Notes under the pieces: model-generated
The model's input: the letters and a program-made list of their open reading frames with translations, nothing else
Database searches by the model: none
Told to the model about the DNA's origin: nothing
IMG/VR virus record: IMGVR_UViG_3300020083_000006
Span: 1-64,000 of that record
DNA from: a virus
Length of the DNA stretch: 64,000 bases
Reading direction: 5' to 3' (one strand)
Position numbers and translations under genes: made by a program
In this document: piece by piece, positions 8,019 through 61,196 of the stretch
How positions within the stretch are numbered: the stretch's first letter is position 1
Layout of the letters: each line of letters begins with the position of its first letter

Positions 8019-8047
8019 ATTTTACAATAATGACTAAAGTTTCTCAA
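8019..8047 (-). promoter_or_regulatory. sigma70-like promoter for the large fibre gene
   Basis: Read on the minus strand: TTGAGA, 17 nt, TAAAAT, placed about 40 nt before the fibre ATG. It overlaps a sigma28-like promoter facing the other way, so the two probably compete for polymerase. Confidence 0.55.
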
Positions 8048-8061
8048 GCAATTTCCGAATA
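8035..8061 (+). promoter_or_regulatory. sigma28 (FliA)-like promoter 1
   Basis: The sequence is TAAAGTTT, 11 nt, TCCGAATA, 23 nt before the ATG of the first plus-strand gene. The -35 is a perfect match to the E. coli FliA consensus and the spacing is exact. The -10 keeps CCGA but differs in the last bases, so this is the weakest of five such sites. Confidence 0.5.
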
Positions 8062-8084
8062 GAAGGGTATAAGGAGGACAAGTC

Positions 8085-8204
8085 ATGCAAAATATTCTTC
8101 TTGCAATGTTGGGGGTTATTTTGGTATCTTCATTAATGCTGCTTATGACGATTAATGACAGAGAGGTTTCTCGTGACGATGAAAAAACTCAAAGAGGAGA
8201 ATGA
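8085..8204 (+). CDS. 39-aa membrane micro-protein
   Basis: An ATG follows AAGGAGGACAAGTC, a near-perfect ribosome site. The protein starts MQNILLAMLGVILVSSLMLL, a single membrane helix of about 20 residues, and ends with a charged cytoplasmic tail (NDREVSRDDEKTQRGE). It overlaps the next gene in another frame and is the first gene after the sigma28-like promoter. Function unknown; a small inner-membrane effector of the host is plausible. Confidence 0.65.
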   Translation: MQNILLAMLGVILVSSLMLLMTINDREVSRDDEKTQRGE

Positions 8205-8439
8205 AGTTTTAAAACAAATCATTCAGGACACTATGTGGATGGCCTTTAGGTACGTAGACGGGCGGTCTACGTATGCGCCCAGTATGTTCAATCTGGCCGT
8301 CCATAAGCTAGACAGCTTAGAACTGTCTCATTTACACGCAGGAGACCCTGTAACTAATAATAGACGTTTTGCAGAAGATGGAATGCTTGGTGAGTGGAAT
8401 CCAGAGTTAAGAGATTTTATTAAAAAGGAGAAGTTATGA
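8179..8439 (+). CDS. small unknown protein, 86 aa
   Basis: The product starts MKKLKEENEVLKQIIQDTMW, an N-terminal coiled-coil-like helix, followed by a mixed region ending RDFIKKEKL. I chose this ATG because GAGAGG lies upstream, while an in-frame ATG 24 nt earlier has no ribosome site. The start lies inside the preceding micro-protein gene and the stop overlaps the next ATG (ATGA), so all three genes form one coupled unit. The family is not recognised. Confidence 0.7.
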   Translation: MKKLKEENEVLKQIIQDTMWMAFRYVDGRSTYAPSMFNLAVHKLDSLELSHLHAGDPVTNNRRFAEDGMLGEWNPELRDFIKKEKL

Positions 8440-8954
8440 AAATTGGCATTAACGGTATTTCTTATAGCAAGACTGAGCGCAAGTATTTGGTTAGAACTTA
8501 CAAAGATTCTAAGACGGTCTACTTGGGACGGTTTAGTTCTTTAGAAGAAGCTCAAGCTGCTCTTAGGGCACATGAAGAACCAGAGCAAACACAAGACAGT
8601 AATACCCCTATCTTGAACTCTATTAGAGCGCAGTTTGCTCCTACCAAAAAGTCTAATAAAAAGAAAGTATCTGTGGCTAAATCTACCCCTAAGCCCGATG
8701 TGTTCGTACTTAATAATAAATCACACGTAACAACCAAAAAACCATCAAAGATTAAGTCTTCTTCAAAATCCGCCGTAGGAACACCCACAGGAGAATTGAC
8801 AGTCAAGGGAATTGATGAGGCAGCCCTTAACAAGCAATTAGCGCAAAAAACTCTTGACTTAATTCTTAATTATCTAGTTGAGCTGGCTGACGAAAGGCAG
8901 ACAACTGTCTTTAATGTTATTGTTCATGAAGTGGCGAGACTTGTTAAGAAATAA
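8436..8954 (+). CDS. AP2-like DNA-binding protein (172 aa)
   Basis: Residues 4-45 read GINGISYSKTERKYLVRTYK followed by a YLGRFSSLEEAQAAL motif, the pattern of AP2/arm-type DNA-binding domains (GI-x-Y...W/Y-x-V...LG-x-F...EEAxxA) found in phage integrases and homing endonucleases. The middle (about 70-115) is a lysine- and serine-rich linker. The C-terminal 50 residues form a predicted helical domain (LNKQLAQKTLDLILNYLVEL). No nuclease motif is visible, so a regulator or nucleoid-binding protein is more likely than an endonuclease. It is the last gene of a three-gene plus-strand unit and is followed by a terminator. Confidence 0.6.
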   Translation: MKIGINGISYSKTERKYLVRTYKDSKTVYLGRFSSLEEAQAALRAHEEPEQTQDSNTPILNSIRAQFAPTKKSNKKKVSVAKSTPKPDVFVLNNKSHVTTKKPSKIKSSSKSAVGTPTGELTVKGIDEAALNKQLAQKTLDLILNYLVELADERQTTVFNVIVHEVARLVKK

Positions 8955-8960
8955 AAAAAA

Positions 8961-8977
8961 GGGGGCTTCAAGCCCCC
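8961..8977. terminator. terminator between convergent genes
   Basis: GGGGGC, loop TTCAA, GCCCCC forms a tight GC hairpin. On the minus strand it is followed by a run of eight T, making a strong intrinsic terminator for the 125-aa gene and its upstream partner. On the plus strand the T run is poor, but the hairpin with its flanking A/T pairs may also stop the AP2-like gene's transcript. Confidence 0.8.
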
Positions 8978-8984
8978 TAGATAT

Positions 8985-9362
8985 TTACGCTAACCAGCAG
9001 TAAACTCTACACTTTCCATCTGGGTTGCCAATTCCTATGTGAGTGGCCAATGAATACGCCGCAAACTTGGTGCGAGGCGGAAATAAACACATAGGCCCAG
9101 CATAGTTTTCAATCGGTAAGCTTTGTCCGGGGGCAAGACAAAGTATTTTTTGCCAAGCTCCTTCTAAGCTAGAAGGATTTGCAATTAAAACTTGTACTTC
9201 TTGATCCGAGTCGTTGTGAAAAATAATTTTATGAGACTGATCTGCCAATGTAATTAACATTGCTGGCGCAAGCTCTGTAGCGGCGGCCAAAGCAACTTTT
9301 GTCGCTTCGCCGTAATCTAATTTTAATCCACCCACGCCGTTATCAGAAAAAATGTTTGGCAT
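8985..9362 (-). CDS. unknown probable head-associated protein, 125 aa
   Basis: The 125-aa product begins MPNIFSDNGVGGLKLDYGEA and has alternating beta-strand-like segments (SHKIIFHNDSDQEVQVLIAN) and a C-terminal CRVYCWLA. There is no signal peptide. It lies directly downstream of the putative prohead protease and ahead of a strong terminator, which suggests a head decoration or stabilising protein. That role is inference from position only; I do not recognise the family. Confidence 0.65.
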   Translation of the reverse strand: MPNIFSDNGVGGLKLDYGEATKVALAAATELAPAMLITLADQSHKIIFHNDSDQEVQVLIANPSSLEGAWQKILCLAPGQSLPIENYAGPMCLFPPRTKFAAYSLATHIGIGNPDGKCRVYCWLA

Positions 9363-9371
9363 ATCAACCTC

Positions 9372-11691: not shown

Positions 11692-12615
11692 ATGATTGCA
11701 GATAAAGTCGTATATTGTTTGAACTCTGCTGCAGTGGGTGATCTAATAGCTGCCGCTCCTTCTTTAAAATACGCTACCGAAAATTTTCACAAAAGAACGG
11801 ACGATTACCTTGTAGGAGTTTATCCGGATTTTAAAGATTTTTTTCATTTTATTCCTGAAAGTAAATTTACCGAAGTTACGGCTCAGTACCCTAAGGGATA
11901 TTCAATTAGGCATTTAAATATGCTCGGAGTTGGTAACCATGTTTGTAAGCTAACTCCGTCTCGCATGAAACTGACCCAATACGCCTCTATTGGTTTACTG
12001 GGGCGCGTACTAGATGACATCGACGCCCAGTACGTTCCGCTTTTACCAACGGACGTAAGCCGTTACGGCGTAGATTTTAGTAAATCTGTAATTATTATTA
12101 CTACTTACAGAGACAAGCAGCGTACAATTCTATCAGACGAAATTACTAAAATTGCCGAATATGTTTATTCAAAAGGGCTAACTCCTGTATACGTAGGCAA
12201 AAGAGGAGCTATTTCTATTTGGAAAAGCAGTCTCGCTGTAAGTGATTTTGAGTATCCGGGCTTTGGAGTAGACTTAAGAGACGATACGTCTTTTAGGGAG
12301 CTTGCAACTATTATGAATCAGTCTAAAGCCATCGTGGGAATGGACGGCGGCCCTATGCACATTGCTTGGACAACCCAAACTCCCGTTGTTTGCGGATTTA
12401 CGACTATTAAACCTGAGCTCCGGATTCCATACAGAGGACGAGTTCCCACCATTTCAATTACTCCCAATATTGCCTGCGGTTTTTGTGAGTCAGACTGGTC
12501 ACTAAATTACTGGAATTTTGCAAACTGTCCTCGCAAAATGGAGCTTGCAGAGTGTGTTACAAAAATGACTAGTAAAAAGTTTATAGATGCTTTAAACCAA
12601 TTAAAGATTTGGTGA
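11692..12615 (+). CDS. GT9-family (heptosyltransferase-like) glycosyltransferase
   Basis: The 307-aa protein begins MIADKVVYCLNSAAVGDLIA, with the N-terminal GD(L/I)-AAAPSLKY motif of the GT9 family, and carries the nucleotide-sugar signature GMDGGPMHIAWTTQTPVVCG (family form NDSGPMHLA). GT9 enzymes transfer heptose or GlcNAc to lipopolysaccharide. A cysteine-containing segment (CGFCESDW...CPRKM) follows. The ATG after AAGGACATTTAAG is preferred over an upstream in-frame TTG. The gene is spaced one base after the helicase. It could alter host lipopolysaccharide to block rival phages or glycosylate virion proteins; the sequence does not decide. Confidence 0.7.
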   Translation: MIADKVVYCLNSAAVGDLIAAAPSLKYATENFHKRTDDYLVGVYPDFKDFFHFIPESKFTEVTAQYPKGYSIRHLNMLGVGNHVCKLTPSRMKLTQYASIGLLGRVLDDIDAQYVPLLPTDVSRYGVDFSKSVIIITTYRDKQRTILSDEITKIAEYVYSKGLTPVYVGKRGAISIWKSSLAVSDFEYPGFGVDLRDDTSFRELATIMNQSKAIVGMDGGPMHIAWTTQTPVVCGFTTIKPELRIPYRGRVPTISITPNIACGFCESDWSLNYWNFANCPRKMELAECVTKMTSKKFIDALNQLKIW

Positions 12616-13492: not shown

Positions 13493-13767
13493 CAGATTTT
13501 ATTGAAATTACATTAGTTAGTGCGGACGAAGTGCTAAGCCGCTCCTTTAACCCCATTGAGTTTCAAAACACGTTTAGTTGTGACTGGAAAACCGAAGAGC
13601 TAATCGCGCCAATCAAGTCTGTTTCTGTGCCAGAACAAACGCCGCAAAGAAGAGTCTATAGACGCGCTCCAGACCAAATTAAGCATCGCCGTAGCTTTAA
13701 TTATGATGGACTAGAGACTTGGATGTCTATTCGAGTAGTGGTTTTTAAAGAAGTGATTGCTACCTGA
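13489..13767 (+). CDS. unknown 92-aa protein, last gene of the helicase operon
   Basis: Begins MTDFIEITLVSADEVLSRSF and has an arginine-rich central part (RRVYRRAPDQIKHRR) that could bind nucleic acid. Its 3' end overlaps the convergent glycosyltransferase gene by 8 nt, and no hairpin terminator is visible between them, so antisense read-through is likely. Family not recognised. Confidence 0.6.
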   Translation: MTDFIEITLVSADEVLSRSFNPIEFQNTFSCDWKTEELIAPIKSVSVPEQTPQRRVYRRAPDQIKHRRSFNYDGLETWMSIRVVVFKEVIAT

Positions 13768-14326
13768 CGTTGTAAGTAATCTCTTTAGAGAAGACGATTT
13801 TGCCCCGCTTGTCTTCAATCTGCCTTAAGAAGTGATAATCTTCTAGGGGTCCGTTCTTAAATTCAATTCCGTTTTGCACTAAAAACTCTTTCCTGGCTGC
13901 ACAAGAAATCCCAACAAGACAAGCCTGAATATTCTTTAAGTGAGCTGGTGGCAGCACTTTAGAGTCTTTATCGTCGTAACTCATCCTAAAGATAACGCAG
14001 TCAGCGTCTGGGTTGGTAGTCAATTCTGCTGCCAAAGCATCCACATAGTGTGGCCGAAAGCTATCATCGTCATCCAAGAAGCACAGCCAATCGGTCATGA
14101 CTAACGGAATAAGTTTGTTTCTAACTCCGCCGCCATGGTTTTTGCCGCCGCCCGCCTTAGTCAGATAGACATAGGTGATTCTGTTGTCTTGGACAGGTTG
14201 AGGAGGATTAACGCCGTCAAACCCAACGAGCGATAACCATTTAGGATTAGATTGGCTTTGTAGTGACTCCAAGGCTTCTTTGAGAGTCGGCCTGCCTATT
14301 GATGGAGTTATTACTGTAACAATCAT
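13760..14326 (-). CDS. GT2-family glycosyltransferase
   Basis: This 188-aa protein has the GT-A fold signatures: the N terminus MIVTVITPSIGRPTLKEAL, the donor-binding motif CFLDDDDSFRP, and a C-terminal LEDYHFLRQIED acceptor/catalytic element. GT2 enzymes use nucleotide sugars to extend glycans. At 188 aa it is a minimal catalytic domain with no membrane helix. It is the last gene of the long minus-strand head operon, directly after the Mu F-like protein, so it may glycosylate a virion protein, although host surface modification is equally possible. Confidence 0.75.
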   Translation of the reverse strand: MIVTVITPSIGRPTLKEALESLQSQSNPKWLSLVGFDGVNPPQPVQDNRITYVYLTKAGGGKNHGGGVRNKLIPLVMTDWLCFLDDDDSFRPHYVDALAAELTTNPDADCVIFRMSYDDKDSKVLPPAHLKNIQACLVGISCAARKEFLVQNGIEFKNGPLEDYHFLRQIEDKRGKIVFSKEITYNVR

Positions 14327-21868: not shown

Positions 21869-21973
21869 TTATAGTAAATTAGAAATCCACACTAATATGC
21901 TGACCAAAAACATAAAAAATTTAATAGTGTAATAACCAACCGTTAAAGCGATTGCCGTTAGGACAAAGTTCAT
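21869..21973 (-). CDS. 34-aa membrane micro-protein under a sigma28-like promoter
   Basis: The frame reads MNFVLTAIALTVGYYTIKFF then MFLVSILVWISNLL, that is one long or two short hydrophobic helices. The ATG follows a GGGGGTGG ribosome site and lies 18 nt after the -10 of a FliA-like promoter. The combination of promoter, ribosome site and membrane composition argues for a real gene. Function unknown. Confidence 0.6.
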   Translation of the reverse strand: MNFVLTAIALTVGYYTIKFFMFLVSILVWISNLL

Positions 21974-21991
21974 AGCCACCCCCATGATTTC

Positions 21992-22018
21992 TTATCGGGT
22001 GGCTGTCGTTATTTTTTA
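21992..22018 (-). promoter_or_regulatory. sigma28 (FliA)-like promoter 2
   Basis: Minus-strand TAAAAAAT, 11 nt, CCCGATAA. The -10 matches 7 of 8 consensus bases and the spacing is exact. The -35 overlaps the last codons of the HNH gene. Confidence 0.6.
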
Positions 22019-22447: not shown

Positions 22448-24430
22448 TTAAATACTAAATTTAATTAATTTTTTCTTTGGTTCGGGGGCAGGGCCTTTGG
22501 AATCACCTTCGATGAGGTGACCCATGCCTGCTTTTCTGTAAGCATCCATAGTCATATCAGCTAGTTGCGACGGCATGATGGGTACACCCATATCTTTATA
22601 GGTATCATACATGGCAGACTCTAGCTCTTTTTGGTATTGCTGTTCGCGGCTCATGGGGGCGGCAGTGCCGATGTGTTTAGAGGCGCTACTAATCTTAATT
22701 TCGACTGCGGTGCGGTATTTGTCTAGTGCATACCGACTTGCGTCATTCGTGTGAGTCCAATCATCGTCTTCAAATCGACTTGTATCAAACTCTCCACGGG
22801 GGTCTTTCTTGTGCATCCAGTTGGTAAAAGATTCAATAGCATACTCTATCCCGCTGTCGTTTTCTTCTTTACAAAGAATCATGTCTGACTCTTGTCTTTC
22901 TACATTCCAAAGCAAAGACTGAATCTGAACTACTCCAGTCTCAATATGAGTCGGTTTCTTGGGCTTAACAGCAAACCCAAAAGGCTGAAAGTAATGAGCA
23001 GAACCAGCATCGGCTGTATCAGGGCAAATAATGTCTGGAGGAAACATTAGGCATTCTTTTTCTCTAACTGTTTGTGCCCACTGAGAGTTGGGGTAGCCAG
23101 TAGCTGACCGCGCATGAAGCAAAATGGCTCTAGTCTGAGATTGAGAGTACAGATATACAACGACCACTGCGGGGTCGCGAACGCCCCAGTCAATACCAAA
23201 ACTTACTTCCCATTTATTAGTCACTGCCCAAGCATAAATATCCTGTTTAGTACATTTTCTATTATTCTTCCACTGTTGACCAGTCATCCAAAACCAAGTC
23301 TCAGCGGGGCTACGGACGTGATTCATTCTGTTGAACGTAGGGAAAACTAAGCCGCCTGTTTCTGGACGCCAGTTGAGAATCTGAGCAATAATTTTGTTGG
23401 CTTCTTTTGTCTCTTTAATGAAGTTACCAATGAAGGCAATAGTTCTTAATGTCTTAGATTTGCCTGTCTGTTTGGGGGCGCGAGCCTGACAGGCAATAAA
23501 CGCAGGGCATGTCATACATCCTTCATAAGCTAATATTTCTTTGTACTTAACTTTGATTGCTTCTGGTTCTTCTTGGAATAGCTCTTCATCCCATCTGACT
23601 TTGAGGTTTTCTGTATGAAGATATGCCTTGAGTCTCTTTTCTCCGTGAGTCTCTGGCAAACATTTCCTCATAAAATCCACAGCCGACCACTTGTCTAGTC
23701 TAATATCTGGGTCGTCGCCCTTTTCGGCCTCTTCCATCAGTTCCTGCAAAGGTCCTTGAGAAGTCTTGCGAGAAGACAGCGAGATGGTGATTGGCTCAAA
23801 GCCGTGCTCATCTTGCGTGGGGTCGGCAACCATGGCGACTTCTGAGAGAATCTCTCTGGGGGTTAGGTCACATTCGTCTCGAATAATAATAGAAGCGCGG
23901 GATGAGTTAGCACCCTCTAGTGTAGCTGCTGTTACAAAAACGTCGGCATCGTCTTTTGCTGTATACGAATTTGGAGGCAAATTAAAGAGTCGTAGCTCTC
24001 CCGCTCGGTTTGTTTCAAAATGTTCTTGAAGTTCTGGAATACGGAGGAACTTTTTAAGGTACTTGATTGCTTTGTAAGATTGGTCTTTAATGGCGGCAAT
24101 CTGTAGACATGACCTTCTAAAATGAATCATTGCCAACCAATGAATCACCGCCGACATAACTGTCTTCATCGAGTTACGAGAGGCTGCCACGACTACACGG
24201 TGGGCACCCTTGTTGGTCTTCATTGTGAGGTAAATTTGCCAGACAGCTTCCATGGGATTAGAAGTAGACATTTCGTCTACTGTACAGTCTGGCAAGTCTA
24301 ACTTAAGGAAAGTCTTAATGAATTGTTGAAGCTCTTCTTTTGTTTCACAAACAGTAAACAAAAGACGTTTACGCATTTCAATGCGCACCCTTTGCTCTTC
24401 TGTAATTTCAGGTTCTTTTTTCTTAGCCAT
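22448..24430 (-). CDS. large terminase subunit (packaging ATPase-nuclease, 660 aa)
   Basis: This is the motor that pumps DNA through the portal. The N-terminal ATPase has a Walker A-like loop ASRNSMKT (83-90), a Walker B with catalytic acid IIIRDECD (181-188) and a coupling region. The C-terminal RNase H-like nuclease starts at VSFGIDWGVRDPAVVVVYL and has later acids in CPDTADAG and DDDWTHTNDASR. In the Walker A loop the usual Gly before Lys is Met. It overlaps the glpX stop by 8 nt, so the two are translationally coupled, and is followed by the HNH gene. Confidence 0.9.
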   Translation of the reverse strand: MAKKKEPEITEEQRVRIEMRKRLLFTVCETKEELQQFIKTFLKLDLPDCTVDEMSTSNPMEAVWQIYLTMKTNKGAHRVVVAASRNSMKTVMSAVIHWLAMIHFRRSCLQIAAIKDQSYKAIKYLKKFLRIPELQEHFETNRAGELRLFNLPPNSYTAKDDADVFVTAATLEGANSSRASIIIRDECDLTPREILSEVAMVADPTQDEHGFEPITISLSSRKTSQGPLQELMEEAEKGDDPDIRLDKWSAVDFMRKCLPETHGEKRLKAYLHTENLKVRWDEELFQEEPEAIKVKYKEILAYEGCMTCPAFIACQARAPKQTGKSKTLRTIAFIGNFIKETKEANKIIAQILNWRPETGGLVFPTFNRMNHVRSPAETWFWMTGQQWKNNRKCTKQDIYAWAVTNKWEVSFGIDWGVRDPAVVVVYLYSQSQTRAILLHARSATGYPNSQWAQTVREKECLMFPPDIICPDTADAGSAHYFQPFGFAVKPKKPTHIETGVVQIQSLLWNVERQESDMILCKEENDSGIEYAIESFTNWMHKKDPRGEFDTSRFEDDDWTHTNDASRYALDKYRTAVEIKISSASKHIGTAAPMSREQQYQKELESAMYDTYKDMGVPIMPSQLADMTMDAYRKAGMGHLIEGDSKGPAPEPKKKLIKFSI

Positions 24431-25322
24431 AAGTCGTCTTTATAAATCTTTTTTCCTTTGGAGTCAAAATAACTGAATGAGTTTGGTTGTGAGTCACTCC
24501 ATCAAGTAGGAATGAGTCAGTCACTCCTGTTGCAATAAAAGCCGCTTTTCCGCTAACCATCCTGTCAGTATCGTACTCTTTTTCGTCTGTTTTGTGCATA
24601 AAAGCTGCTCGTTCTTTAAGTTCTGGAGTATCTAATACTAATCGACCTAGTATCTTCCCCCCAAGACTCTTAATAGCGGCAGCCGAGACAACACCCTCCG
24701 GAGCGCCGCCAATCCCCATCAACATGTCGTACTTGCCCATGCAGACACCAATAGCTGCCAGCACGTCTCCGTCGCTGATAAGTGATATTTTAGCTCCTAG
24801 TTGGGTAATTTCTTTAATCAAATCAGCATGTCTCGGCCTATCGAGGACACAGACTGTCATTTCTTCAATTGGCTTTTTAAGATGAGCTGAGACTTCTTTG
24901 AGATTTTCTTCGGTTGTTTTGAATAATGATATAGAGGCGTTTTTGGCTTTAGAGCCTACGACAATCTTGTCCATATAGCAGTCAGGTGCGCTCATAAGGC
25001 TGTACCATTCTCCTACTGCCATAACAGACAGAGCATTAGGCTTGCCTTTGGCGACTAACTCAGTTCCTTCAAGTGGGTCTACAGCAATATCGTACTTGTC
25101 GCCACGGCCTGTGCCAAGTTTTTCTCCAACGTACAACATAGGAGCTTCGTCGAGTTCACCTTCACCTATGACCACAATCCCTCTAAAGTTAATAGAATCA
25201 AATTCGGCTCTCATGGCGTCTACAGCAGCCCCATCTGCTGCATTCTTATCCATTTTTCCAATCCACTTAGAACTAGCAATAGCCGCAGCCTCAGTAACCT
25301 TTAAAAATTTAAAATAATCCAT
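24423..25322 (-). CDS. glpX: class II fructose-1,6-bisphosphatase (GlpX)
   Basis: This 299-aa enzyme hydrolyses fructose-1,6-bisphosphate to fructose-6-phosphate, a step of gluconeogenesis and sugar-phosphate recycling; cyanobacterial relatives also act on sedoheptulose-1,7-bisphosphate. All metal and phosphate motifs of GlpX are present: KNAADGAAVDAMR (Asp30), VIGEGELDEAPML (Glu56), DPLEGT (Asp82, Glu85) and GGAPEGVVSAAAI (Glu209). It is about 35 residues shorter than E. coli GlpX, mainly near the C terminus. The gene sits inside the packaging operon, 8 nt overlapped with the terminase, so it belongs to the phage. It is an auxiliary metabolic gene, inferred to redirect host carbon flow during infection. 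Confidence 0.9.
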   Translation of the reverse strand: MDYFKFLKVTEAAAIASSKWIGKMDKNAADGAAVDAMRAEFDSINFRGIVVIGEGELDEAPMLYVGEKLGTGRGDKYDIAVDPLEGTELVAKGKPNALSVMAVGEWYSLMSAPDCYMDKIVVGSKAKNASISLFKTTEENLKEVSAHLKKPIEEMTVCVLDRPRHADLIKEITQLGAKISLISDGDVLAAIGVCMGKYDMLMGIGGAPEGVVSAAAIKSLGGKILGRLVLDTPELKERAAFMHKTDEKEYDTDRMVSGKAAFIATGVTDSFLLDGVTHNQTHSVILTPKEKRFIKTTYG

Positions 25323-25330: not shown

Positions 25331-25702
25331 TTACTTATCAGAAGGACTCGTATGCTCATCGCAAGCAACATAAAGCCAATGCTTTCCTTTAATTTGTCCT
25401 GGCTTAGAACAAACAGAACAAACAAACTGACTCATATCTTCAAACATAGAAATAATTCTCTCGTCTTCTTCTGTAGACGTAGTTGCATATGCCCGAAGAG
25501 TTCCAAACTTTTCTTTAATTTGTGTAAAGTGCAGAGGATTTTCTTCTGAAATGGGAACACCAATAGCCTCTCTTGAGGCTAAAAGATGCTCACACATGTC
25601 CCAAATTAATGATAACCAACCCTCGTTGACTTCTAAACCACACCTTAAGAGCTGCGGAAACTTGTCTTCAATGTCTTGGTATTGAATTTTCTCTGGTTTC
25701 AC
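25331..25702 (-). CDS. conserved phage protein with KFGTLR motif and Cys pair
   Basis: The 123-aa product has the pattern of a widespread phage family of unknown function: LRCGLEVNEGWLSLIWDMC, then IKEKFGTLRAYA, then a C-terminal zinc-ribbon-like part with CSVC and later ACDEH. I chose a GTG start preceded by AGGAG, which gives a 35-nt overlap with the metalloprotease gene. An in-frame upstream ATG would add 17 poorly conserved-looking residues. It lies just upstream of glpX. Role unknown. Confidence 0.6.
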   Translation of the reverse strand: MKPEKIQYQDIEDKFPQLLRCGLEVNEGWLSLIWDMCEHLLASREAIGVPISEENPLHFTQIKEKFGTLRAYATTSTEEDERIISMFEDMSQFVCSVCSKPGQIKGKHWLYVACDEHTSPSDK

Positions 25703-26270
25703 AAGCCACCTCTCCTGTCTCAGTAATGATTGACTGAGTAACTGTAGAAGCATTTTCTTCTTGTGTCAACGGTAAAGAGCCGCCAGCGCGTAAAAACATA
25801 GCTTTAATGAGCTGTGGCCAGCTACGAAAGATGGTCTGGTCTGAGATTAAGTAGCTATTCATGATGTCATCTTCCTCGTCGTAGTGAGAAAAGGGGTCGC
25901 CAAGGGCGCAGTGAGCCAGCTCGTGCGCAATCAAAGCTTTAGTTGAAAAAGAGTCTGAGTCCTGCCAGTCAAGAACCTCGACCCAGCGCTTTGAGGAAGA
26001 TACATAACACTTGCCAATAACAAACTTTTCAGGAAAAGACTCTACAATCCGTATTGACTTGATTTTATTAAAGTTTTCCTTGCACTTGGTAGATGTTCCA
26101 AACTTGTCACAATATCCGGCAAATTCCATAACGTGGGGAAGAAGTTTGGCGTCTACTTTATGGGTGTCAATATAAAAGGGTTGGGGGACTTCCACAATCT
26201 TTTCTACTTCTGTAGTTCCAAGACCTGTCCCACATCCAACCAACAATATAGCCATAAAGACAAAACGCAT
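25668..26270 (-). CDS. lipoprotein zinc metallopeptidase-like protein
   Basis: The 200-aa protein has a lipoprotein signal (MRFVFMAILLVGC, lipobox LVGC with Gly at +2, favouring the outer membrane). The mature part has cysteines at about 54, 63 and 88 and a zinc-protease motif ALIAHELAHCALGDP with His116, Glu117 and His120; His129 is a candidate third ligand and IMNSYL a possible Met-turn. A periplasmic peptidase in a phage could act on envelope proteins, in lysis or in exclusion of other phages. It begins the operon that leads to glpX and terminase. A shorter paralogue lies about 2 kb away. Confidence 0.6.
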   Translation of the reverse strand: MRFVFMAILLVGCGTGLGTTEVEKIVEVPQPFYIDTHKVDAKLLPHVMEFAGYCDKFGTSTKCKENFNKIKSIRIVESFPEKFVIGKCYVSSSKRWVEVLDWQDSDSFSTKALIAHELAHCALGDPFSHYDEEDDIMNSYLISDQTIFRSWPQLIKAMFLRAGGSLPLTQEENASTVTQSIITETGEVACETRENSIPRH

Positions 26271-26282
26271 AAGTCCCCCTAA

Positions 26283-26474
26283 CTACTCAACCACTTTAAA
26301 CTCTTTAAGTTTTGTACAAGATGAAGTCTGGCGCAGCATCATAAGTTGCGCAATAGACAGACTCACACATTGTTGCTTAACTAGATGACAAGCTAAAGTA
26401 GGCTCACCATCCTCAAAAATAGCCATAGTGTTGCCGCAGATTTGAAATAGGATAATGAGATAAATTAACTTCAT
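26283..26474 (-). CDS. small secreted Cys-containing protein, 63 aa
   Basis: Begins MKLIYLIILFQICGNTMA, a probable signal peptide, followed by a mature part of about 45 residues with three cysteines (LACHLVKQQC, SSCTKL). The ATG overlaps the preceding stop. Probably periplasmic and disulfide-bonded; function unknown. Confidence 0.6.
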   Translation of the reverse strand: MKLIYLIILFQICGNTMAIFEDGEPTLACHLVKQQCVSLSIAQLMMLRQTSSCTKLKEFKVVE

Positions 26475-26758
26475 TGCTCTTCATCCCCATAGTCTATATC
26501 GTCAAACTCTTCGAGAGCTTCATTGATGGCATCATCAATAAGACCAGTTACAACGTAGTCGTCATTCATTCTGTCTGGCTCTTCAATTCCTGTTTTATTG
26601 ACGCCAGAGCCGCTAAGAATACTTTGAATGATTTTTGCAGCATGGTGGTCGTTGGTATGGATAACCAACAGCTTGCCAAACATCTTGACTGACTGGAATG
26701 GGATGCCCATTTGAGTCAGGTAGCTAGAGGCTTGGAGCATGATTTTGTGGTTAGCCAT
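26471..26758 (-). CDS. unknown 95-aa protein with acidic tail
   Basis: Begins MANHKIMLQASSYLTQMGIP after AAGGAGTCTTGCC. The first 50 residues look like a small alpha/beta domain (VKMFGKLLVIHTNDHHAAKI). The last 25 are very acidic (EALEEFDDIDYGDEEQ), a feature of DNA mimics and of proteins that bind basic partners. No family recognised. Confidence 0.6.
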   Translation of the reverse strand: MANHKIMLQASSYLTQMGIPFQSVKMFGKLLVIHTNDHHAAKIIQSILSGSGVNKTGIEEPDRMNDDYVVTGLIDDAINEALEEFDDIDYGDEEQ

Positions 26759-26769
26759 GGCAAGACTCC

Positions 26770-26859
26770 TTAGTCCTGAAGGATATTAACAAGCAGTCCT
26801 GTCCCAAAAAGAACTGCCATGAAAGTAGCAAACATAAGAAACAATTGATACTCAGTCAC
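26770..26859 (-). CDS. 29-aa membrane micro-protein (GTG start)
   Basis: AAGGAGGTTTT precedes a GTG that opens MTEYQLFLMFATFMAVLFGT followed by GLLVNILQD, a single membrane helix. It lies between two genes in the same direction, 9-11 nt from each, and has one of the best ribosome sites in the region. Function unknown. Confidence 0.55.
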   Translation of the reverse strand: MTEYQLFLMFATFMAVLFGTGLLVNILQD

Positions 26860-26868
26860 AAAACCTCC

Positions 26869-27066
26869 TTAATAAACTTCTAATTCTGCCTTGGCCACAT
26901 TTGGAAAAGACTCAGCAATGACCATGGGTGTGTAAAAGTCACCCGCATTTACTTTTTCTATTTTGATGCGCTGTCCGTCTTTAAGGTGGACAATAAGATT
27001 TGCCCTACCATTGGGCGCACATTTAGCGTTAACTGCCTTTTTGATTTCGCTTGCTAGGTTCTTCAT
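26869..27066 (-). CDS. unknown 65-aa protein under a sigma28-like promoter
   Basis: The ATG giving MKNLASEIKKAVNAKCAPNG follows GGAGGTGATT, an ideal ribosome site, and stands 20 nt after a perfect FliA -10 (GCCGATAA). Beta-strand-like pattern in the second half (NLIVHLKDGQRIKIEKVNAG). Soluble, no motif. It is the first gene of a unit that continues with the micro-membrane protein and the acidic protein. Confidence 0.65.
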   Translation of the reverse strand: MKNLASEIKKAVNAKCAPNGRANLIVHLKDGQRIKIEKVNAGDFYTPMVIAESFPNVAKAELEVY

Positions 27067-27086
27067 AATCACCTCCATTACAATAC

Positions 27087-27113
27087 TTATCGGCTGTCTA
27101 GCGTTAACCTTTA
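27087..27113 (-). promoter_or_regulatory. sigma28 (FliA)-like promoter 3 (best match)
   Basis: Minus-strand TAAAGGTT, 11 nt, GCCGATAA. It differs from the FliA consensus at one of 16 positions and has exact spacing. It overlaps the stop codon of the upstream lipoprotein gene. Confidence 0.75.
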
Positions 27114-27436
27114 GGGCAGTCAAACACTTTTTTTGAAATTTTTTCTAAAACTTCAAATTTGCCTACATTACTAGATAGTTCTGTATCCCAGCGCCCATCG
27201 TCAAGAAGCCATCTGTAGTAATAACGGTCAACGCCGACTTTCTCAACTCTGACTCTATGGCGAGACTTAGTCTCTCCGTTTGGCAAGTCAACAATCATGA
27301 GGCAGTCGCCTATCTTATATTTTGGCTGACGCTTAGGTGCTTGAGTGGGGGTGGGTGTTGGCTGCGGAGCAGAATTTGGAACCTGCGGAGATGAAGCGCA
27401 ACCAACCAATAGCACACATAAAAATAAGTTTTTCAT
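27104..27436 (-). CDS. lipoprotein with SH3-like domain, 110 aa
   Basis: The signal MKNLFLCVLLVGC has a clear lipobox (LVGC, Ala at +2), followed by a Pro/Thr/Gln-rich linker to about residue 38. The mature domain (KYKIGDCLMIVDLPNG...YYYRWLLDDGRW) looks like a small SH3-like barrel, with two cysteines that may pair. Probably anchored in the outer membrane, facing the periplasm. Function unknown; one of four lipoproteins in a 4.3-kb stretch. Confidence 0.7.
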   Translation of the reverse strand: MKNLFLCVLLVGCASSPQVPNSAPQPTPTPTQAPKRQPKYKIGDCLMIVDLPNGETKSRHRVRVEKVGVDRYYYRWLLDDGRWDTELSSNVGKFEVLEKISKKVFDCPKG

Positions 27437-27478
27437 AAAAATACCTAGTTAGAAAAAAATAGAAACATTTCAAACTAT

Positions 27479-27691
27479 TTAACACTGTGGCTTATCGCCC
27501 TTCAACATAGCCTCTAAAAACTTGGCCAAATGGACGTTGCTTTCTTCTTTATTGAGTTTACTTCCCATCACAAACAGTACAAGAGTCTCAAGAGTCTTTT
27601 GAGCCTGTTCCATTGTTTGGCCATCTTGAACTAATAATGCCCTAACTCTGTCGTAAGCCTTCTGAGCGTCAAGCCATTGAGATTCTGTCAT
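27479..27691 (-). CDS. unknown 70-aa helical protein
   Basis: Begins MTESQWLDAQKAYDRVRALL after GGAGAACAAAAA. Entirely helical, ending GDKPQC. Cytoplasmic. No family recognised. Confidence 0.6.
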   Translation of the reverse strand: MTESQWLDAQKAYDRVRALLVQDGQTMEQAQKTLETLVLFVMGSKLNKEESNVHLAKFLEAMLKGDKPQC

Positions 27692-27735
27692 TTTTTGTTC
27701 TCCATGGAATGTTATTAATATTCTTTAGAATGCTA

Positions 27736-27879
27736 TTAACGTCCGACCAACTCATTCAGCCACTCGATGACCGTCTGGCCGTAACCATCTTTTATATGCT
27801 CATTAGGGGTCTTGTCAAACAAAACATGAGTCGGTGTATCAAGAAACTGGATGGCCTGTTCTTCCGAGTCATGAAGCAA
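27736..27879 (-). CDS. possible 47-aa ORF (TTG start) or 3' part of a frameshifted gene
   Basis: This frame reads well as protein (HDSEEQAIQFLDTPTHVLFD then KTPNEHIKDGYGQTVIEWLN) and ends in TAA, but has no ATG. A TTG with a weak GAG upstream is the only internal start. A GTG that overlaps the stop of the upstream 42-aa ORF opens the neighbouring frame (MSYREILCF...), and a -1 shift would join it to this frame. Either a TTG-started small gene, a programmed frameshift or a decayed gene is possible. Confidence 0.4.
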   Translation of the reverse strand: MLHDSEEQAIQFLDTPTHVLFDKTPNEHIKDGYGQTVIEWLNELVGR

Positions 27880-27895
27880 AGTATTTCTCGGTAAC

Positions 27896-28024
27896 TCACA
27901 AGTCCCACCTCAAACAAGCATACAACACCTGCTCAACTGGCCAATCATTTTCTATTGACCGCCTATTGGCCATTCTAATGACTTCTATTGACCAACCAAC
28001 ACTAAAATGGTCAATAGATTTCAT
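27896..28024 (-). CDS. 42-aa small protein
   Basis: The frame reads MKSIDHFSVGWSIEVIRMAN then RRSIENDWPVEQVLYACLRW, ending in a TGA that overlaps a downstream GTG (GTGA). The composition (amphipathic helices, Trp, Arg and Glu) looks natural and no other frame here does. The ribosome site is weak. Function unknown. Confidence 0.5.
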   Translation of the reverse strand: MKSIDHFSVGWSIEVIRMANRRSIENDWPVEQVLYACLRWDL

Positions 28025-28070
28025 CTGCACGTCATCTAAACTTCATTTTTGTAAAACTTTGTCCATGAGC

Positions 28071-28102
28071 TTATTATAGGCTACGAGCGTAGACTATAAT
28101 AA
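28071..28102. repeat. 15-bp near-perfect inverted repeat
   Basis: Arms TTATTATAGGCTACG and CGTAGACTATAATAA pair over 15 bp with one mismatch around a 2-nt centre. A further TTATTATAG copy lies at 28112-28120. Neither side has a T run, so this looks more like an operator or protein-binding palindrome than an intrinsic terminator. It sits between a lipoprotein gene and the small ORFs. Confidence 0.7.
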
Positions 28103-28121
28103 ACCAAATCCTTATTATAGA

Positions 28122-28484
28122 TTATTTACTTAGACCAATAGCCTTGGCAAACTCTTCTAAACTCAACAGGTCACTCTGAAGCGTGCTTAAATTCAGGCTG
28201 CAATAAAACAACTCTTGGTAGACAGCCGCCCTGTTGCCTCGGGTCACCGCCTCCCTATGAAGCACCACAGACCTAATAGGATTACCGTCTTCTGTCCAAC
28301 AAGTCTGCTCGTCGGCAGACTCGCTAAGGCTGTGAACTGTCATGGGAACATCGCACCTGTCTCCATGGACTTTTTTACAGTCGCCCACAAACTCTTGCAA
28401 GAAGTTGTCTGCTTTGACTTCGTCTGGAGTTTGCGGAGCGCCACAACCAACCAAAAACACAAATAAACTCAAATACTTAAACAT
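28122..28484 (-). CDS. lipoprotein, degenerate paralogue of the metallopeptidase
   Basis: The ATG giving MFKYLSLFVFLVGC (lipobox LVGC, Gly at +2) follows AAGGGGATTGATT; an upstream in-frame extension is a shadow of the next gene. The 120-aa product follows the metallopeptidase lipoprotein in order: FVGDCKKVHGDRC matches FAGYCDKFGTSTKC there, then an isolated Cys before a RSVVLHRE strand, then QELFYCSLN where the other has HELAHCALG. The zinc ligands are lost (HExxH to QExxY), so it is probably inactive and may bind the same partner. Confidence 0.65.
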   Translation of the reverse strand: MFKYLSLFVFLVGCGAPQTPDEVKADNFLQEFVGDCKKVHGDRCDVPMTVHSLSESADEQTCWTEDGNPIRSVVLHREAVTRGNRAAVYQELFYCSLNLSTLQSDLLSLEEFAKAIGLSK

Positions 28485-28497
28485 AATCAATCCCCTT

Positions 28498-28719
28498 TTA
28501 ATCACAAAAGTCTCCTGCCTCTTCTGAAAAGATTCTAAATTGTGGACCGTGCCAAGCCCATAGCTCATCATGAGCATCTGCTGCGGACCAACGCTCCAAT
28601 GAGCGCACGTAGGACTCCGCTTCGCCTAGTGTGTCAAACTCAGCCTCAAAGGATTGGTCAATTGTCCAGTTAGGCATGGTCATTGGAGCAACATCAGACT
28701 CAATAAGAACTGTGTACAT
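28498..28719 (-). CDS. unknown 73-aa protein under a sigma28-like promoter
   Basis: Begins MYTVLIESDVAPMTMPNWTI after GGGAGGTGCTGC. Mixed alpha/beta pattern with a helical centre (EAESYVRSLERW) and Trp-rich end; acidic. It is the first gene after FliA-like promoter 4 and is followed by the degenerate lipoprotein. No family recognised. Confidence 0.65.
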   Translation of the reverse strand: MYTVLIESDVAPMTMPNWTIDQSFEAEFDTLGEAESYVRSLERWSAADAHDELWAWHGPQFRIFSEEAGDFCD

Positions 28720-28751
28720 GCAGCACCTCCCGTAGTTGACTTACATAAGTC

Positions 28752-29630: not shown

Positions 29631-29643
29631 AAGAATCTCCTGA

Positions 29644-58131: not shown

Positions 58132-58688
58132 GTGCCGGTGCTTCCCATGCCGCCAATACGCTTAACTGTCTTAACTTCAAGGAATGGGTCTTTGAGGACT
58201 AGTTCCCATTTGGCCTGACAGATTCTGTCTCCAATCTTAACAAAATGTGTTTCATTTGAAAAATTCCTAAGAATGACTTTAATTTCATTCTCTGGATTAT
58301 TTTCAACAAGGTAGTCTCTATCAATCTCGCCTGCCCCTAGTCCAATCCCTCTGGCCGCCAAGCCAGAACGCTCTCTAAGAACTAGAGCTAGGTTCATGAC
58401 TGCGGGGTTAAGATTAATGAAATGAGCGGCGTCTTCCATGGTCAGATAGAGGCCAGTCTTAATGATTGCATAAGAGTTGGGCCGAATAACTGCATTATCA
58501 TCTGCCAAAATATCAAAACAACTTGACTGCTCTGTCTGATAGGCAGGCAAAGGATTTGCATAAAATCCTCTGTACACAAGTCTAGGCATTTGAATATGAG
58601 TTGCCATGAAGTATTCCTCTTCAGACAACTTAGTTGGATCTACCTGCAGTGATTTTAAGTGGTTAAGCGCTTCTTCTGAAACTTTCAT
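58128..58688 (-). CDS. dut: dUTPase
   Basis: The 186-aa protein has all five trimeric dUTPase motifs: SCFDILA (56-62, motif I with Asp59), RSGLAARGI (107-115, II), GEIDRDY (120-126, III), GDRICQ (153-158, IV) and RIGGMGSTG (177-185, V, the flexible P-loop-like tail). It hydrolyses dUTP to dUMP, keeping uracil out of DNA and feeding dTMP synthesis. An N-terminal 40-residue extension is unusual. It lies in the lysis/dUTPase operon, coupled to the 130-aa gene. Confidence 0.85.
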   Translation of the reverse strand: MKVSEEALNHLKSLQVDPTKLSEEEYFMATHIQMPRLVYRGFYANPLPAYQTEQSSCFDILADDNAVIRPNSYAIIKTGLYLTMEDAAHFINLNPAVMNLALVLRERSGLAARGIGLGAGEIDRDYLVENNPENEIKVILRNFSNETHFVKIGDRICQAKWELVLKDPFLEVKTVKRIGGMGSTGT

Positions 58689-58695
58689 AAAAACC

Positions 58696-59109
58696 TCAAT
58701 TTAATGTGACATTAGTTTCACGATTTGCATACTCTTCCATAGCATCTTCTTCATATTCATCTTCGAGAAGACTTTTGGAAGCATCAGTGTAGCCTAAATT
58801 ACGAGACATGGTTAATGCATTAACAAGCGCCTCGAAAGATATTGTAACAATTGTCTTATCTTCGGCGTCGCCCTCTGAATAAAGCATTGCACAAATAAGG
58901 GCAAGGCAATCATGACTACATGTGTAATCTTGACGAAAAACACCGTCCACATCGACCACGTCTACTTTGAAAATATTATCAGCGTCGCCCGTATCATACA
59001 CTTGAACTGAACGTAGACTTTTAATATTTTCAAGATAAAGAACAGTTCCGTTTGGGCTTCTTAAATCAATATTCTTCTGGAATTTGGATAGTAACTTCTT
59101 CTGATCCAT
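58696..59109 (-). CDS. unknown 137-aa acidic protein
   Basis: Begins MDQKKLLSKFQKNIDLRSPN after GGGGGAAAATT, so the 44-nt overlap with the transglycosylase gene is probably real. Contains a short VQVYDTGDADNIFKVDVVDV strand and a very acidic C terminus (LLEDEYEEDAMEEYAN). No family recognised. Confidence 0.6.
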   Translation of the reverse strand: MDQKKLLSKFQKNIDLRSPNGTVLYLENIKSLRSVQVYDTGDADNIFKVDVVDVDGVFRQDYTCSHDCLALICAMLYSEGDAEDKTIVTISFEALVNALTMSRNLGYTDASKSLLEDEYEEDAMEEYANRETNVTLN

Positions 59110-59947
59110 AATTTTCCCCCTCTTCTGTTTCTTCGGCCTCGTCCTCTACACGAGGGTTTAGCCGTTCTGTCACAGCCTTGTCAATAGCAAATAACTGAGC
59201 TACGTAGTTTCTACTGTAGAACTTGTAGCCTTTTATCTTTACGTCATTTTCGTCGAGATAGTTGAATATTTCACAAATATCCTTTGAATTTGCTATGTTA
59301 GACGCTTTGAGCAACCTTCCTGTGCCAGAGTGATAGGCATTAATGGCTAGAGTCCAGTCGCCTAGCATTTCATAGTTAAACTTAAGGAGCTTGATGGCTA
59401 CGTCGGTGGCTACCCTATTGTCTCTGAGCCTGACTCTCTTCTTAACTCCAAATAGCCTCCCTGTTGCCGGCATGATTTGCCACATGCCTACCGCCCCGAC
59501 TGGACTCGTGGCTTTATGTGAGTACGAAGACTCTACGAATGGCAAGAAGGCTATTTGATGGGGCATCCCCTGTTGTTCTAGTCTTTCGGCAATCTTGGGG
59601 TAATGTTCGTGCATTCTCTCGAAGCCCTTCTCGAAAAACCCCCTTGCTCCTGTCTTGACGGCGATGTTCTTTTTTTCTTTAGGTATTAGTTTTGCATATT
59701 TGTTAAATAACTGCTTCTTATATCTTTTGACCGCCTTCTTGCTTCCCTTTGGTCTAGGGTAGACGTTGTAGACTTCCATCGTCTTTTGGTTATAGACGAT
59801 AATATCGTGGCGCGTGTACTTAGTATAAACGTCATACCAAAAGTCAATATTTGACTGCAGACATTCTGGCGGAGTCAGCTCTACTCGCTCTTGTGCAAAA
59901 GCACTCAGAGATAGAACTGATGCTGCCAAAGCAATATACTTTAGCAT
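59066..59947 (-). CDS. MltD-like soluble lytic transglycosylase with signal peptide
   Basis: The 293-aa product starts with a Sec signal (MLKYIALAASVLSLSAFA, cleavage after AFA) and has the SLT catalytic domain: FLPFVESSYSHKATSP (catalytic Glu139), GAVGMWQIMPATGRLFG (154-170) and AINAYHSGTGRLLKA (201-215). Such enzymes cut the MurNAc-GlcNAc bond of peptidoglycan. Without LysM repeats it may serve cell-wall opening at lysis or during assembly. Acidic C-terminal tail (EDEAEETEEGENYGSEE). It starts right at the stop of the small membrane protein (TAATG), suggesting a lysis cassette. Confidence 0.85.
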   Translation of the reverse strand: MLKYIALAASVLSLSAFAQERVELTPPECLQSNIDFWYDVYTKYTRHDIIVYNQKTMEVYNVYPRPKGSKKAVKRYKKQLFNKYAKLIPKEKKNIAVKTGARGFFEKGFERMHEHYPKIAERLEQQGMPHQIAFLPFVESSYSHKATSPVGAVGMWQIMPATGRLFGVKKRVRLRDNRVATDVAIKLLKFNYEMLGDWTLAINAYHSGTGRLLKASNIANSKDICEIFNYLDENDVKIKGYKFYSRNYVAQLFAIDKAVTERLNPRVEDEAEETEEGENYGSEEVTIQIPEEY

Positions 59948-60168
59948 TATTTAGATTTCCGTTCTGAAAGTGGAGTACGCTTGGATGGCTCTGCGGTCAT
60001 TGTGCCTTTAGAGCACTTGCCTGTCGAGACAGATTGCTCTTGTTTGGGATTAGAGCGAGTCGGAGCCGCCACACAATATTGTGTGTTCTTGTTGTCTACT
60101 TCGGGCGTCTTGTGTGAAATTCCAACAAAAAGAGCCAAAAGTCCTGCTGCAAAAAGCCCTTCAATCAT
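59947..60168 (-). CDS. small signal-anchored protein, 73 aa (spanin/lysis candidate)
   Basis: Begins MIEGLFAAGLLALFVGISHK, an N-terminal membrane anchor or signal, then a hydrophilic Ser/Thr/Pro/Lys-rich tail with two cysteines. It is the first gene after a good promoter and its stop overlaps the transglycosylase start. A role in lysis (pinholin, spanin or release protein) is possible from context only. Confidence 0.55.
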   Translation of the reverse strand: MIEGLFAAGLLALFVGISHKTPEVDNKNTQYCVAAPTRSNPKQEQSVSTGKCSKGTMTAEPSKRTPLSERKSK

Positions 60169-60191
60169 AATACAATTACCTCCTAAATAAA

Positions 60192-60220
60192 CTTATAGTT
60201 GATTTGATTGAATAAGTCAA
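60192..60220 (-). promoter_or_regulatory. sigma70-like promoter for the lysis/dUTPase operon
   Basis: Minus-strand TTGACT, 17 nt, TATAAG, about 24 nt before the ATG. Strong match and in an intergenic gap. Confidence 0.7.
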
Positions 60221-60233
60221 TTGTTTTTAATGC

Positions 60234-60512
60234 TTATTCGTCTAACTCGTTGATTTCATTTAGTCTTTGTTTAATCTTACTAGAAACATGAGTATTAGGC
60301 AGCTTTTCGCCGTTTAGTAGCTTTCTAAGGCAATAGTTGAAGTGGATGTCTGAAAAGATATTAGACATGTTGTTGGACTGGTAATTGGGGTAGAAGTCTT
60401 CTGCAATGGCAGCTACCTGTTCTGTTGTGTAGCCAGAGAACACTCCGGCTGTCTCTTGAATAGTAGTTACAGGTTGGTTGCCAATAGTTTCTGTTATGTA
60501 AGTGAAACGCAT
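60234..60512 (-). CDS. unknown 92-aa protein
   Basis: The ATG giving MRFTYITETIGNQPVTTIQE follows TAAGGAGATGACT and is preferred to an ATG 21 nt upstream. Beta-rich first half, helical second half (FNYCLRKLLNGEKLP) and acidic end. Ends the unit of small genes starting at 61148. Family not recognised. Confidence 0.65.
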   Translation of the reverse strand: MRFTYITETIGNQPVTTIQETAGVFSGYTTEQVAAIAEDFYPNYQSNNMSNIFSDIHFNYCLRKLLNGEKLPNTHVSSKIKQRLNEINELDE

Positions 60513-60522
60513 AGTCATCTCC

Positions 60523-60657
60523 TTAAGCTGCAATCATTAAAACAATCAATGGAATGGCAATCCATAATGGGGCATAAACGGCTAGCGCTACTATAGCAGC
60601 TAACTGAATAATAACGTGAATAGCAATAGCTGTAGCAACTGTAATGTTGGGCTTCAT
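60523..60657 (-). CDS. 44-aa membrane micro-protein
   Basis: An ATG after AGGAGGAAGTGGC opens MKPNITVATAIAIHVIIQLA, continuing AIVALAVYAPLWIAIPLIVL, so nearly the whole protein is hydrophobic (one long or two short membrane helices). It overlaps the stop of the upstream gene by 4 nt. Strong ribosome site and composition argue for a real gene. It could be a holin-like or membrane-effector protein. Confidence 0.65.
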   Translation of the reverse strand: MKPNITVATAIAIHVIIQLAAIVALAVYAPLWIAIPLIVLMIAA

Positions 60658-61148
60658 GCCACTTCCTCCTCTGAATTAATGAGTTTCCTAAGATGGTCAA
60701 GGGCTGTTTGGACTGCTTTAATCTTTCCTTTAAGAGACTTAAGCTTGCTAATGCGCAGACGCTTGCCTGCGCAGTGTTCCCAAATAGGGTAGTCAATTCT
60801 CTTTCTGTTGGCAATCTGCTCTCTGTAAGGACGGAGCAGCTCAGCGTATTCGTTGATGAGAGCCTGAAGCTCTTTAGTCTGCAGGTGCTCTAGATGAGCT
60901 TTCTTCTCAGCCTTGCTGCGCTCTTCGGCAGCCTTGACCTGAGCCTGAATGCTTTCAAGCTCTGTGTAGCTTTGAATGCACTCAGAGCCAAGTTGAACAG
61001 TGTGGCCTGAGCAAGCTACCGTGTAGACGTTCTTGATGCGGGTGCCGCAAGCACATGATGATTCACCCTTAGAAATGTCCACAAGGGTGTAATCACCCAC
61101 TGGATGCTCAAAAGCTGCTGCCAATCTTTGTGCCCAGTTGTTTCTCAT
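60654..61148 (-). CDS. zinc-ribbon plus coiled-coil protein (164 aa)
   Basis: The first 60 residues contain a probable zinc module (SSCACGTRIKNVYTVACSGH, then SEC), and residues 65-150 are a Lys/Glu-rich helix pair (QVKAAEERSKAEKKAHLEHL) ending in an acidic tail. The ATG has GGGGGTG upstream and lies 21 nt after FliA-like promoter 5. A DNA/RNA-binding or host-factor-binding role is inferred from the domain mix only. Confidence 0.65.
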   Translation of the reverse strand: MRNNWAQRLAAAFEHPVGDYTLVDISKGESSCACGTRIKNVYTVACSGHTVQLGSECIQSYTELESIQAQVKAAEERSKAEKKAHLEHLQTKELQALINEYAELLRPYREQIANRKRIDYPIWEHCAGKRLRISKLKSLKGKIKAVQTALDHLRKLINSEEEVA

Positions 61149-61169
61149 GGTTCACCCCCATTATTATTC

Positions 61170-61196
61170 TTATCGGAGGTCTTTTAAAAACCTTTA
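61170..61196 (-). promoter_or_regulatory. sigma28 (FliA)-like promoter 5
   Basis: Minus-strand TAAAGGTT, 11 nt, TCCGATAA, 21 nt before the ATG of the zinc-ribbon gene. It differs from consensus at two of 16 positions. Confidence 0.7.

Follow-up and report, generated by a model that had tools for sequence, protein, structure and literature searches.

Probable sigma28 (FliA)-class promoters in front of small genes in an IMG/VR phage and its relatives

Phages usually begin transcription with the sigma70 of their host and then switch through factors of their own, and phage-encoded sigma systems are represented by the T4 gp55 and SPO1 gp28 type. Staphylococcal sigmaH, an alternative sigma factor of the host, reportedly acts at a phage promoter. 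Host sigmaH is described as acting on the integration and excision of staphylococcal prophages (PMC2869324), a precedent for phages that employ an alternative sigma factor of their host. No report of phage genes under sigma28 was found among the papers listed in a literature search by title and start of abstract, which left most matching papers unlisted and subscription journals largely outside it. In Bdellovibrio bacteriovorus, FliA (sigma28) has been proposed as a global regulator of the attack phase, TTAAG-N16-CCGATA being present at 92 of 140 attack-phase promoters (PMC3627812). In this study, putative FliA-type promoters in front of small genes were analysed in a stretch of 64,000 nucleotides (the window), namely bases 1–64,000 of the 78,035-bp virus record IMGVR_UViG_3300020083_000006 (G000, the focal phage), together with the remaining 14,035 bases of that record (L001) and with other phage contigs.

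The phage sites have the same boxes and spacing as the E. coli FliA promoters of flagellar and chemotaxis genes (PMC4203485), as illustrated by TAAAGGTTGTTTTACGACAGACGATAAC of fliC and TAAAGGTTAACGCTAGACAGCCGATAAG of the phage. They differ in fronting small and mostly uncharacterised genes, in additionally favouring a C ahead of TAAAG and a G following CGATAA, and, in the focal phages, in a TTATG-like stretch behind the -10 box. The B. bacteriovorus regulon likewise carries FliA-type promoters far beyond flagella, in front of many uncharacterised genes, but it is bacterial and has N16 in place of the N15 of the phage sites (PMC3627812). The staphylococcal case also concerns a host alternative sigma factor, but a different one, which serves integration and excision and not a regulon of many sites (PMC2869324). 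The nearest named phage, Mx1 of Myxococcus (OR576727.2), is related through terminase, sheath, portal and polymerase at 25–31% identity, but differs in encoding a sigma-like protein and in lacking the motif.

Five FliA-type sites had been claimed in the window by a first-pass annotation; four of them hold, one being weaker, and the fifth, at 8034–8061, does not (Table 1). A FliA matrix was built from 22 E. coli FliA chromatin immunoprecipitation (ChIP) sites with a score of at least 10 in the table of PMC4203485, the lower-scoring rows being dropped. The first version, with spacer columns, gave weaker ranks (25 for the 61196 site and 24 for the 22018 site), and because this spacer noise demoted true sites, a second matrix was made from the box columns alone, with a threshold of 14 chosen by the analyst, and used to rank about 156,000 positions of G000. 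Eight candidates were considered, the five claimed in the window and three in L001, and seven of them possess the sigma28 boxes and spacing (TAAAG, N15, CCGATAA). These seven accepted sites read TAAAG-N15-[CT]CGATAAG, two of them with one mismatch (a one-letter change in the -35 box), and all fall within the top eight positions of this E. coli-only matrix. When the window was shuffled 100 times with its dinucleotides preserved, matches with at most one mismatch averaged 0.10 (maximum 2), and the observed number of 4 was never reached. All seven sites are on the minus strand, and a GGAGGTGA-like stretch, four letters or longer, separates the -10 box from the ATG. In the window, the four distances from the end of the -10 box to the ATG are 17, 19, 20 and 31 nt; in L001, all three are 20 nt. 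Six of the seven start at most 10 nt from the stop codon of the preceding gene, and the seventh lies 85 nt beyond it. On these features and the comparisons below, the accepted sites are probably sigma28 (FliA)-class promoters read by host FliA-RNA polymerase.

The 8034–8061 site has no FliA -10 box, and its -35 box is not conserved in the relatives G006 and G008; the unit placed behind it by the first-pass annotation, a membrane microprotein and an 'AP2-like' gene without a Pfam match, was therefore removed from the regulon. The block CCGAATAGAA..GTAT, which precedes the ribosome site within 8034–8084, is conserved in G005, G006 and G008, and may represent another promoter type. A two-mismatch match at L001 11173–11200 lies inside a coding frame and was not counted.

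Table 1. Candidate promoters of the focal record and the genes behind the window sites (window coordinates unless prefixed L001)
Feature	Coordinates	Strand	Sequence or remark	Box-matrix rank
Sigma28-type promoter (27113)	27086–27113	-	TAAAGGTTAACGCTAGACAGCCGATAAG; 0 mismatches to TAAAG-N15-CCGATAAG	2
Sigma28-type promoter (28778)	28751–28778	-	TAAAGGTTTTTGTTGACCCTCCGATAAG; 0 mismatches	5, tied with 61196
Sigma28-type promoter (61196)	61169–61196	-	TAAAGGTTTTTAAAAGACCTCCGATAAG; 0 mismatches	5, tied with 28778
Weaker sigma28-type promoter (22018)	21991–22018	-	TAAAAAATAACGACAGCCACCCGATAAG; 1 mismatch (TAAAA)	8
Claimed site, unsupported	8034–8061	+	TAAAG..CCGAATAG instead of CCGATAAG	35
Exact site (69218)	L001:5191–5218	-		1
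Exact site (69833)	L001:5806–5833	-		3
Site 65739	L001:1712–1739	-	TCAAG..TCGATAAG; two mismatches to the CCGATAAG form	4
65-aa gene	26869–27066	-	behind 27113; G006 homologue has its own perfect 12-letter motif	
73-aa gene	28498–28719	-	behind 28778; homologues in G005, G006 and G008 each with a perfect 12-letter motif	
164-aa gene	60654–61148	-	behind 61196; several Cys in the N-terminal third (by eye)	
34-aa micro-protein gene	21869–21973	-	behind 22018; hydrophobic (by eye)	

The box matrix was then compared with shuffled and mirrored controls, a scan that the first-pass annotation had proposed, and matches exceeded shuffles and sat upstream of genes in G000 and G006. In G000, 8 matches were found against a mean of 0.80 and a maximum of 3 in 20 shuffles and a single match to the mirrored matrix, with 6 of the 8 lying 12–60 nt upstream of a called start (0.22 expected). 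The corresponding values were 21 matches, shuffle mean 2.50, maximum 6, mirrored 2 and 12 of 21 upstream (0.56 expected) for G006, and 13 matches, mean 1.55, maximum 4, mirrored 1 and 4 of 13 upstream (0.31 expected) for G005. Same-strand positions just upstream of genes were the rule in G000 and G006, not in G031. Mx1 gave 2 matches (shuffles, 0.90). A dyad search without any prior motif returned AAAG-N16-CGAT as the commonest dyad in 180 pooled upstream regions of G006, G000 and G005 (17 occurrences, tied with a one-base shift; maxima of 7–9 in 10 mononucleotide shuffles), a count that is inflated because the three genomes are related. The motif was also among the ten commonest dyads of single genomes in G000, G006, G013, G014, G021, G041 and G046. 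The G006 dyad TTTA-N9-TAAA, which ties for the top, was rejected as a second motif; it comprises mixed sequences, some of them sigma28 sites, and no coherent motif. The best distance to the 12-letter motif among the 368 called genes of G000, G006 and G005 was 0 mismatches for 17 genes, 1 for 5, 2 for 8, 3 for 13 and 4–6 for 325. The genes behind the sites are short: the chance of an equally small mean was about 0.01 for G000 (6 genes) and 0.0002 for G006 (10 genes), counting genes called behind a site and omitting sites without a called gene.

The focal terminase matches eight IMG/VR contigs. Among the relatives, G007 (122 kb) aligns with G000 across 74 kb at 99.9% identity, and G006 (162,747 bp) shares 15 blocks at 67.6–83.6% identity; G006 looks like a nearly complete genome because both of its ends fall among neighbouring G000 genes. 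In orthologous alignments, TAAAG and CGATAAG are mostly kept while the spacers drift; the 22018 and 65739 sites show one-letter changes. Both boxes of the 27113 promoter are conserved in G005, G006 and G008, where a T replaces the first C of the -10 box, and the boxes of the 61196 promoter are conserved in G006; the 22018 place has the exact form in G008 and one-off forms in G006 and G005. A search of G000, G004, G005, G006 and G008 with 16 motif-driven genes from G000 and G006 gave 17 homologue matches (13 distinct pairs), four queries having none, and 15 of the 17 carry the 12-letter motif at 0–1 mismatch; in the two motif-less matches, the homologue in G000 stands second in line, after a different gene that has the motif. 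The G006 homologue of the 164-aa gene is 70% identical and has a perfect motif in front.

Among relatives, a promoter with its small gene can change position or be exchanged. The G006 homologue of the 65-aa gene lies at 111667–111888 with its own perfect motif, about 75 kb away from where the orthologous position would be (about 36480) and on the opposite strand, and at 27113, 69218 and 69833 the promoter is retained in relatives while the next gene is different. The cassettes thus have the transferable promoter of a moron, a self-contained extra gene; no terminator-like site was detected by a simple scan directly behind the three, of four, window cassettes covered. In G003, a 57-kb contig (L062–L064), only the first 2 kb, containing the terminase, aligned with the focal phage at the length cut-off used (87% identity), a pattern of gene exchange or of a chimeric contig.

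Exact-pattern scans of IMG/VR revealed many more motif contigs. We selected 39 contigs, 8 of them at full length, for holding an exact match, so that the first match per contig is no evidence, and the extra matches and controls are. Sites with at most one mismatch, relative to the reversed control, numbered 16/0 in G009, 9/0 in G010, 10/0 in G046, 9/1 in G013, 9/1 in G041, 7/0 in G031, 7/0 in G014 and 6/0 in G021, and many of the 39 contigs had only one or two. Protein matches to G006/G007 at 1e-4 were many in G009, G010 and G013, four in G021, three each in G031 and G041, one in G014 and none in G046. Exact copies of TAAAG-N15-CCGATAA numbered 5 in G000, 5 in G006, 8 in G010 and 4 in G046, as against a single copy, in chi, among 13 named phages together; chi and PBS1, both flagellum-dependent, are among the 13. 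As a spacing control, CTAAAGTTT-Nx-CCGATAAG was counted in IMG/VR stretches with x of 11, 12 and 13, corresponding to N14, N15 and N16 between TAAAG and CCGATAAG. The counts of 2, at least 119 and 48, respectively, reveal the spacing constraint of sigma28, the last including three homologous coding matches. These three (L304, L309 and L311, with isolate-style IMG numbers) were discarded as uninformative because they lie inside homologous coding frames. With the E. coli matrix, the footprints in relatives, the motif-keeping homologues and this control, the annotation's proposal of sigma28-class promoters before small genes is supported.

The next open reading frame (ORF) was found at 179 of 191 sites, its median length being 83 aa. 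One G013 site stands in front of an rIIA-like gene (L147, PHROG 612, E 7e-74), and by eye, among the sites listed, this sequence type recurs behind sites in L122, L135, L172 and L176. A second flavour of the motif, ending CCGATAAC, occurs in 28 IMG/VR stretches and is densely arrayed in L329 and L343; L329 has ten putative FliA-type promoters of the CCGATAAC/CCGATATA flavour in about 5 kb, followed by a TATAGTATA-like stretch, and six of them are also present in L343.

Several observations weigh against reading the sites as promoters for host FliA. The box matrix gave four matches in G004, equal to the mirrored matrix (4), and only 0 of 9 matches in G031, 5 of 19 in G009 and 4 of 15 in G010 lie 12–60 nt upstream of a called start. 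Of the 10 sites with at most one mismatch in G005, only 2 are exact, and one of the five exact G006 sites (95410–95436) is antisense within a gene. The motif is not among the commonest dyads of G005, G009, G010 (which shows fragments) and G031 taken singly, and the G014 dyad count (4) merely equals the highest shuffle. T4 has six one-mismatch matches relative to one in the reversed control, the other named phages having 0–3. Sigma70-type pairs (TTGACA/TATAAT, at most two mismatches) are not absent, their excess being weak at most: upstream regions held 6 against 4.2 in shuffled sequence for G006, 5 against 2.1 for G000 and 4 against 2.0 for G005, and parts of the window held 20 against 11.4 (58600–64000) and 7 against 9.1 (25500–30700). 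Sigma-like domains (r2 and/or r4) are present in some motif contigs. Finally, the motif is missing from two Bdellovibrionota-linked records, phi1422 and a partial Silvanigrella phage (1 and 0 box-matrix matches; shuffles, 0.55 and 0.70), and the Bdellovibrio consensus has N16 (PMC3627812), the phage sites N15.

If the sites are read by host FliA, an infecting phage would meet host RNA polymerase already carrying this factor, and this polymerase would read the small-gene cassettes without any phage factor. Transcription would start about 6 nt behind the -10 box, often at the A of the TTATG-like stretch, which the focal phages conserve in part, and the leaders would be very short, with little beyond the ribosome site. 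The hosts would be bacteria with high FliA activity at phage arrival. FliA binding, start site, early timing and the nature of the hosts are here inferred.

Within this explanation, the best host candidates are Bdellovibrio-like attack-phase predators, an attractive but tentative proposal in which the motif would be an adaptation to attack-phase RNA polymerase. The prevalence of FliA-type sites at B. bacteriovorus attack-phase promoters (PMC3627812) is consistent with it, as is the excess of N16 variants over N14 (48 vs 2). Mx1 as the nearest named phage and the G021 portal, whose best named match comes from a Silvanigrella phage (30.5% over 78%), point towards such hosts; the absence of the motif from phi1422 and the partial Silvanigrella phage, and the spacing of N15 against N16, speak against them, and the balance is therefore tilted somewhat against them. 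A scan of genome contigs for GmhA, moreover, gave 12 loci in scattered phyla, none Bdellovibrionota by title.

The first-pass annotation had left open whether the host motility sigma factor or a phage factor reads the sites; the host factor is now favoured. An unlikely alternative to host FliA is a divergent phage-encoded sigma factor with FliA-like specificity, beyond the models used, and the sensitivity of the search is that of hidden Markov models (HMMs), which a very divergent phage sigma could escape. This alternative draws on Mx1, G009 and G010, which encode a sigma-like protein of 331–335 aa directly behind the helicase gene, and on the G after CGATAA, found in 24 of 25 phage sites of a list compiled by hand for a logo and in 2 of 22 E. 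coli sites. It also draws on the domains in other motif contigs: among 24 records, r4 matches at E of at most 1 occur in eight, above the cut-off in G019 and G013 (an 85-aa ORF) and more weakly in G012, G014, G015, G020 and G041, and r2 matches occur in five (G009, G010, G019, Mx1 and, weakly, G015). The focal phages tell against it. In the post-helicase place they have a family-9 glycosyltransferase gene (11692–12615), and the search of the rest of the genome for a sigma gene, as the annotation had envisaged, found none in them. Sigma70_r2 had no match in G000–G008 at E up to 10, Sigma70_r4 none in G000 or G001–G008, Sigma70_r4_2 none in G000, G005, G006 and G007, and FliA_WhiG none in G000, the sole genome searched with this model. 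An HMM of the three sigma proteins of Mx1, G009 and G010 had a best E-value elsewhere of 0.51, in G007, and found nothing in the focal phages; G000, G005, G006 and G007 are thus without any r2, r4, r4_2 or family-sigma match. Moreover, Mx1 has its sigma-like gene, yet no motif at one mismatch or less, and the motif is present in G021, G031 and G046, which match neither r2 nor r4. We favour host FliA because the focal phages are without a detected sigma factor and the motif occurs in lineages that have few proteins, or none, in common with them. Two further candidates were set aside: a 472-aa protein beside the G006 phosphoesterase, without a Pfam match, and the 415-aa sigma gene of G019 as a FliA, which has a primary-type look in the analyst's reading.

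That the sites are chance or coding matches singled out by a pattern-seeking reader, as the 8034 site and the N16 matches in L304, L309 and L311 are, is very improbable for the seven accepted sites, being contradicted by the shuffles, the mirrored matrix, the footprints, the spacing control and the 13 named phages.

Other genes of these phages were also observed. A gene for a ClpX-like AAA+ ATPase, with Pfam matches to AAA_2 and ClpB_D2-small, at window 61951–62865 (+) lies between minus-strand genes and is conserved in G006. Metabolic cargo is located at window 24423–25322 (-), 11692–12615 (+) and 13760–14326 (-) and at L001:2345–2947 (-) and L001:3545–4510 (-), encoding glpX-type fructose bisphosphatase, family-9 and family-2 glycosyltransferases, and SIS-domain (GmhA-like) and aminotransferase-like proteins. 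A 1275-aa protein with a long, near-identical LRV repeat array is encoded at L001:8455–12282 (-), where G007 aligns in several registers. G006 encodes a Mom-type DNA modification protein (PF25680, E 1e-23) at L046:10298–10924 and, at L045:17162–18094, a ClpP-like protease whose N-terminus resembles a signal peptide by eye.

If host FliA indeed reads these promoters, infection would depend on the swimming or attack state of the host, which could help explain the absence of such phages among named ones. The motif would also provide a sequence handle for host prediction, and the promoter–gene pairs would be exchangeable cassettes. More speculatively, several phage lineages may have independently placed small, partly early-type genes, including rIIA-like ones, under the host flagellar sigma factor because the RNA polymerase of their hosts, perhaps Bdellovibrio-like attack-phase predators, is at infection dominated by FliA rather than by sigma70; we regard this as possible, with the odds somewhat against it. 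If so, the promoter flavour, C-TAAAGTTT..CCGATAAG or ..CCGATAAC, would be a fingerprint of the host.

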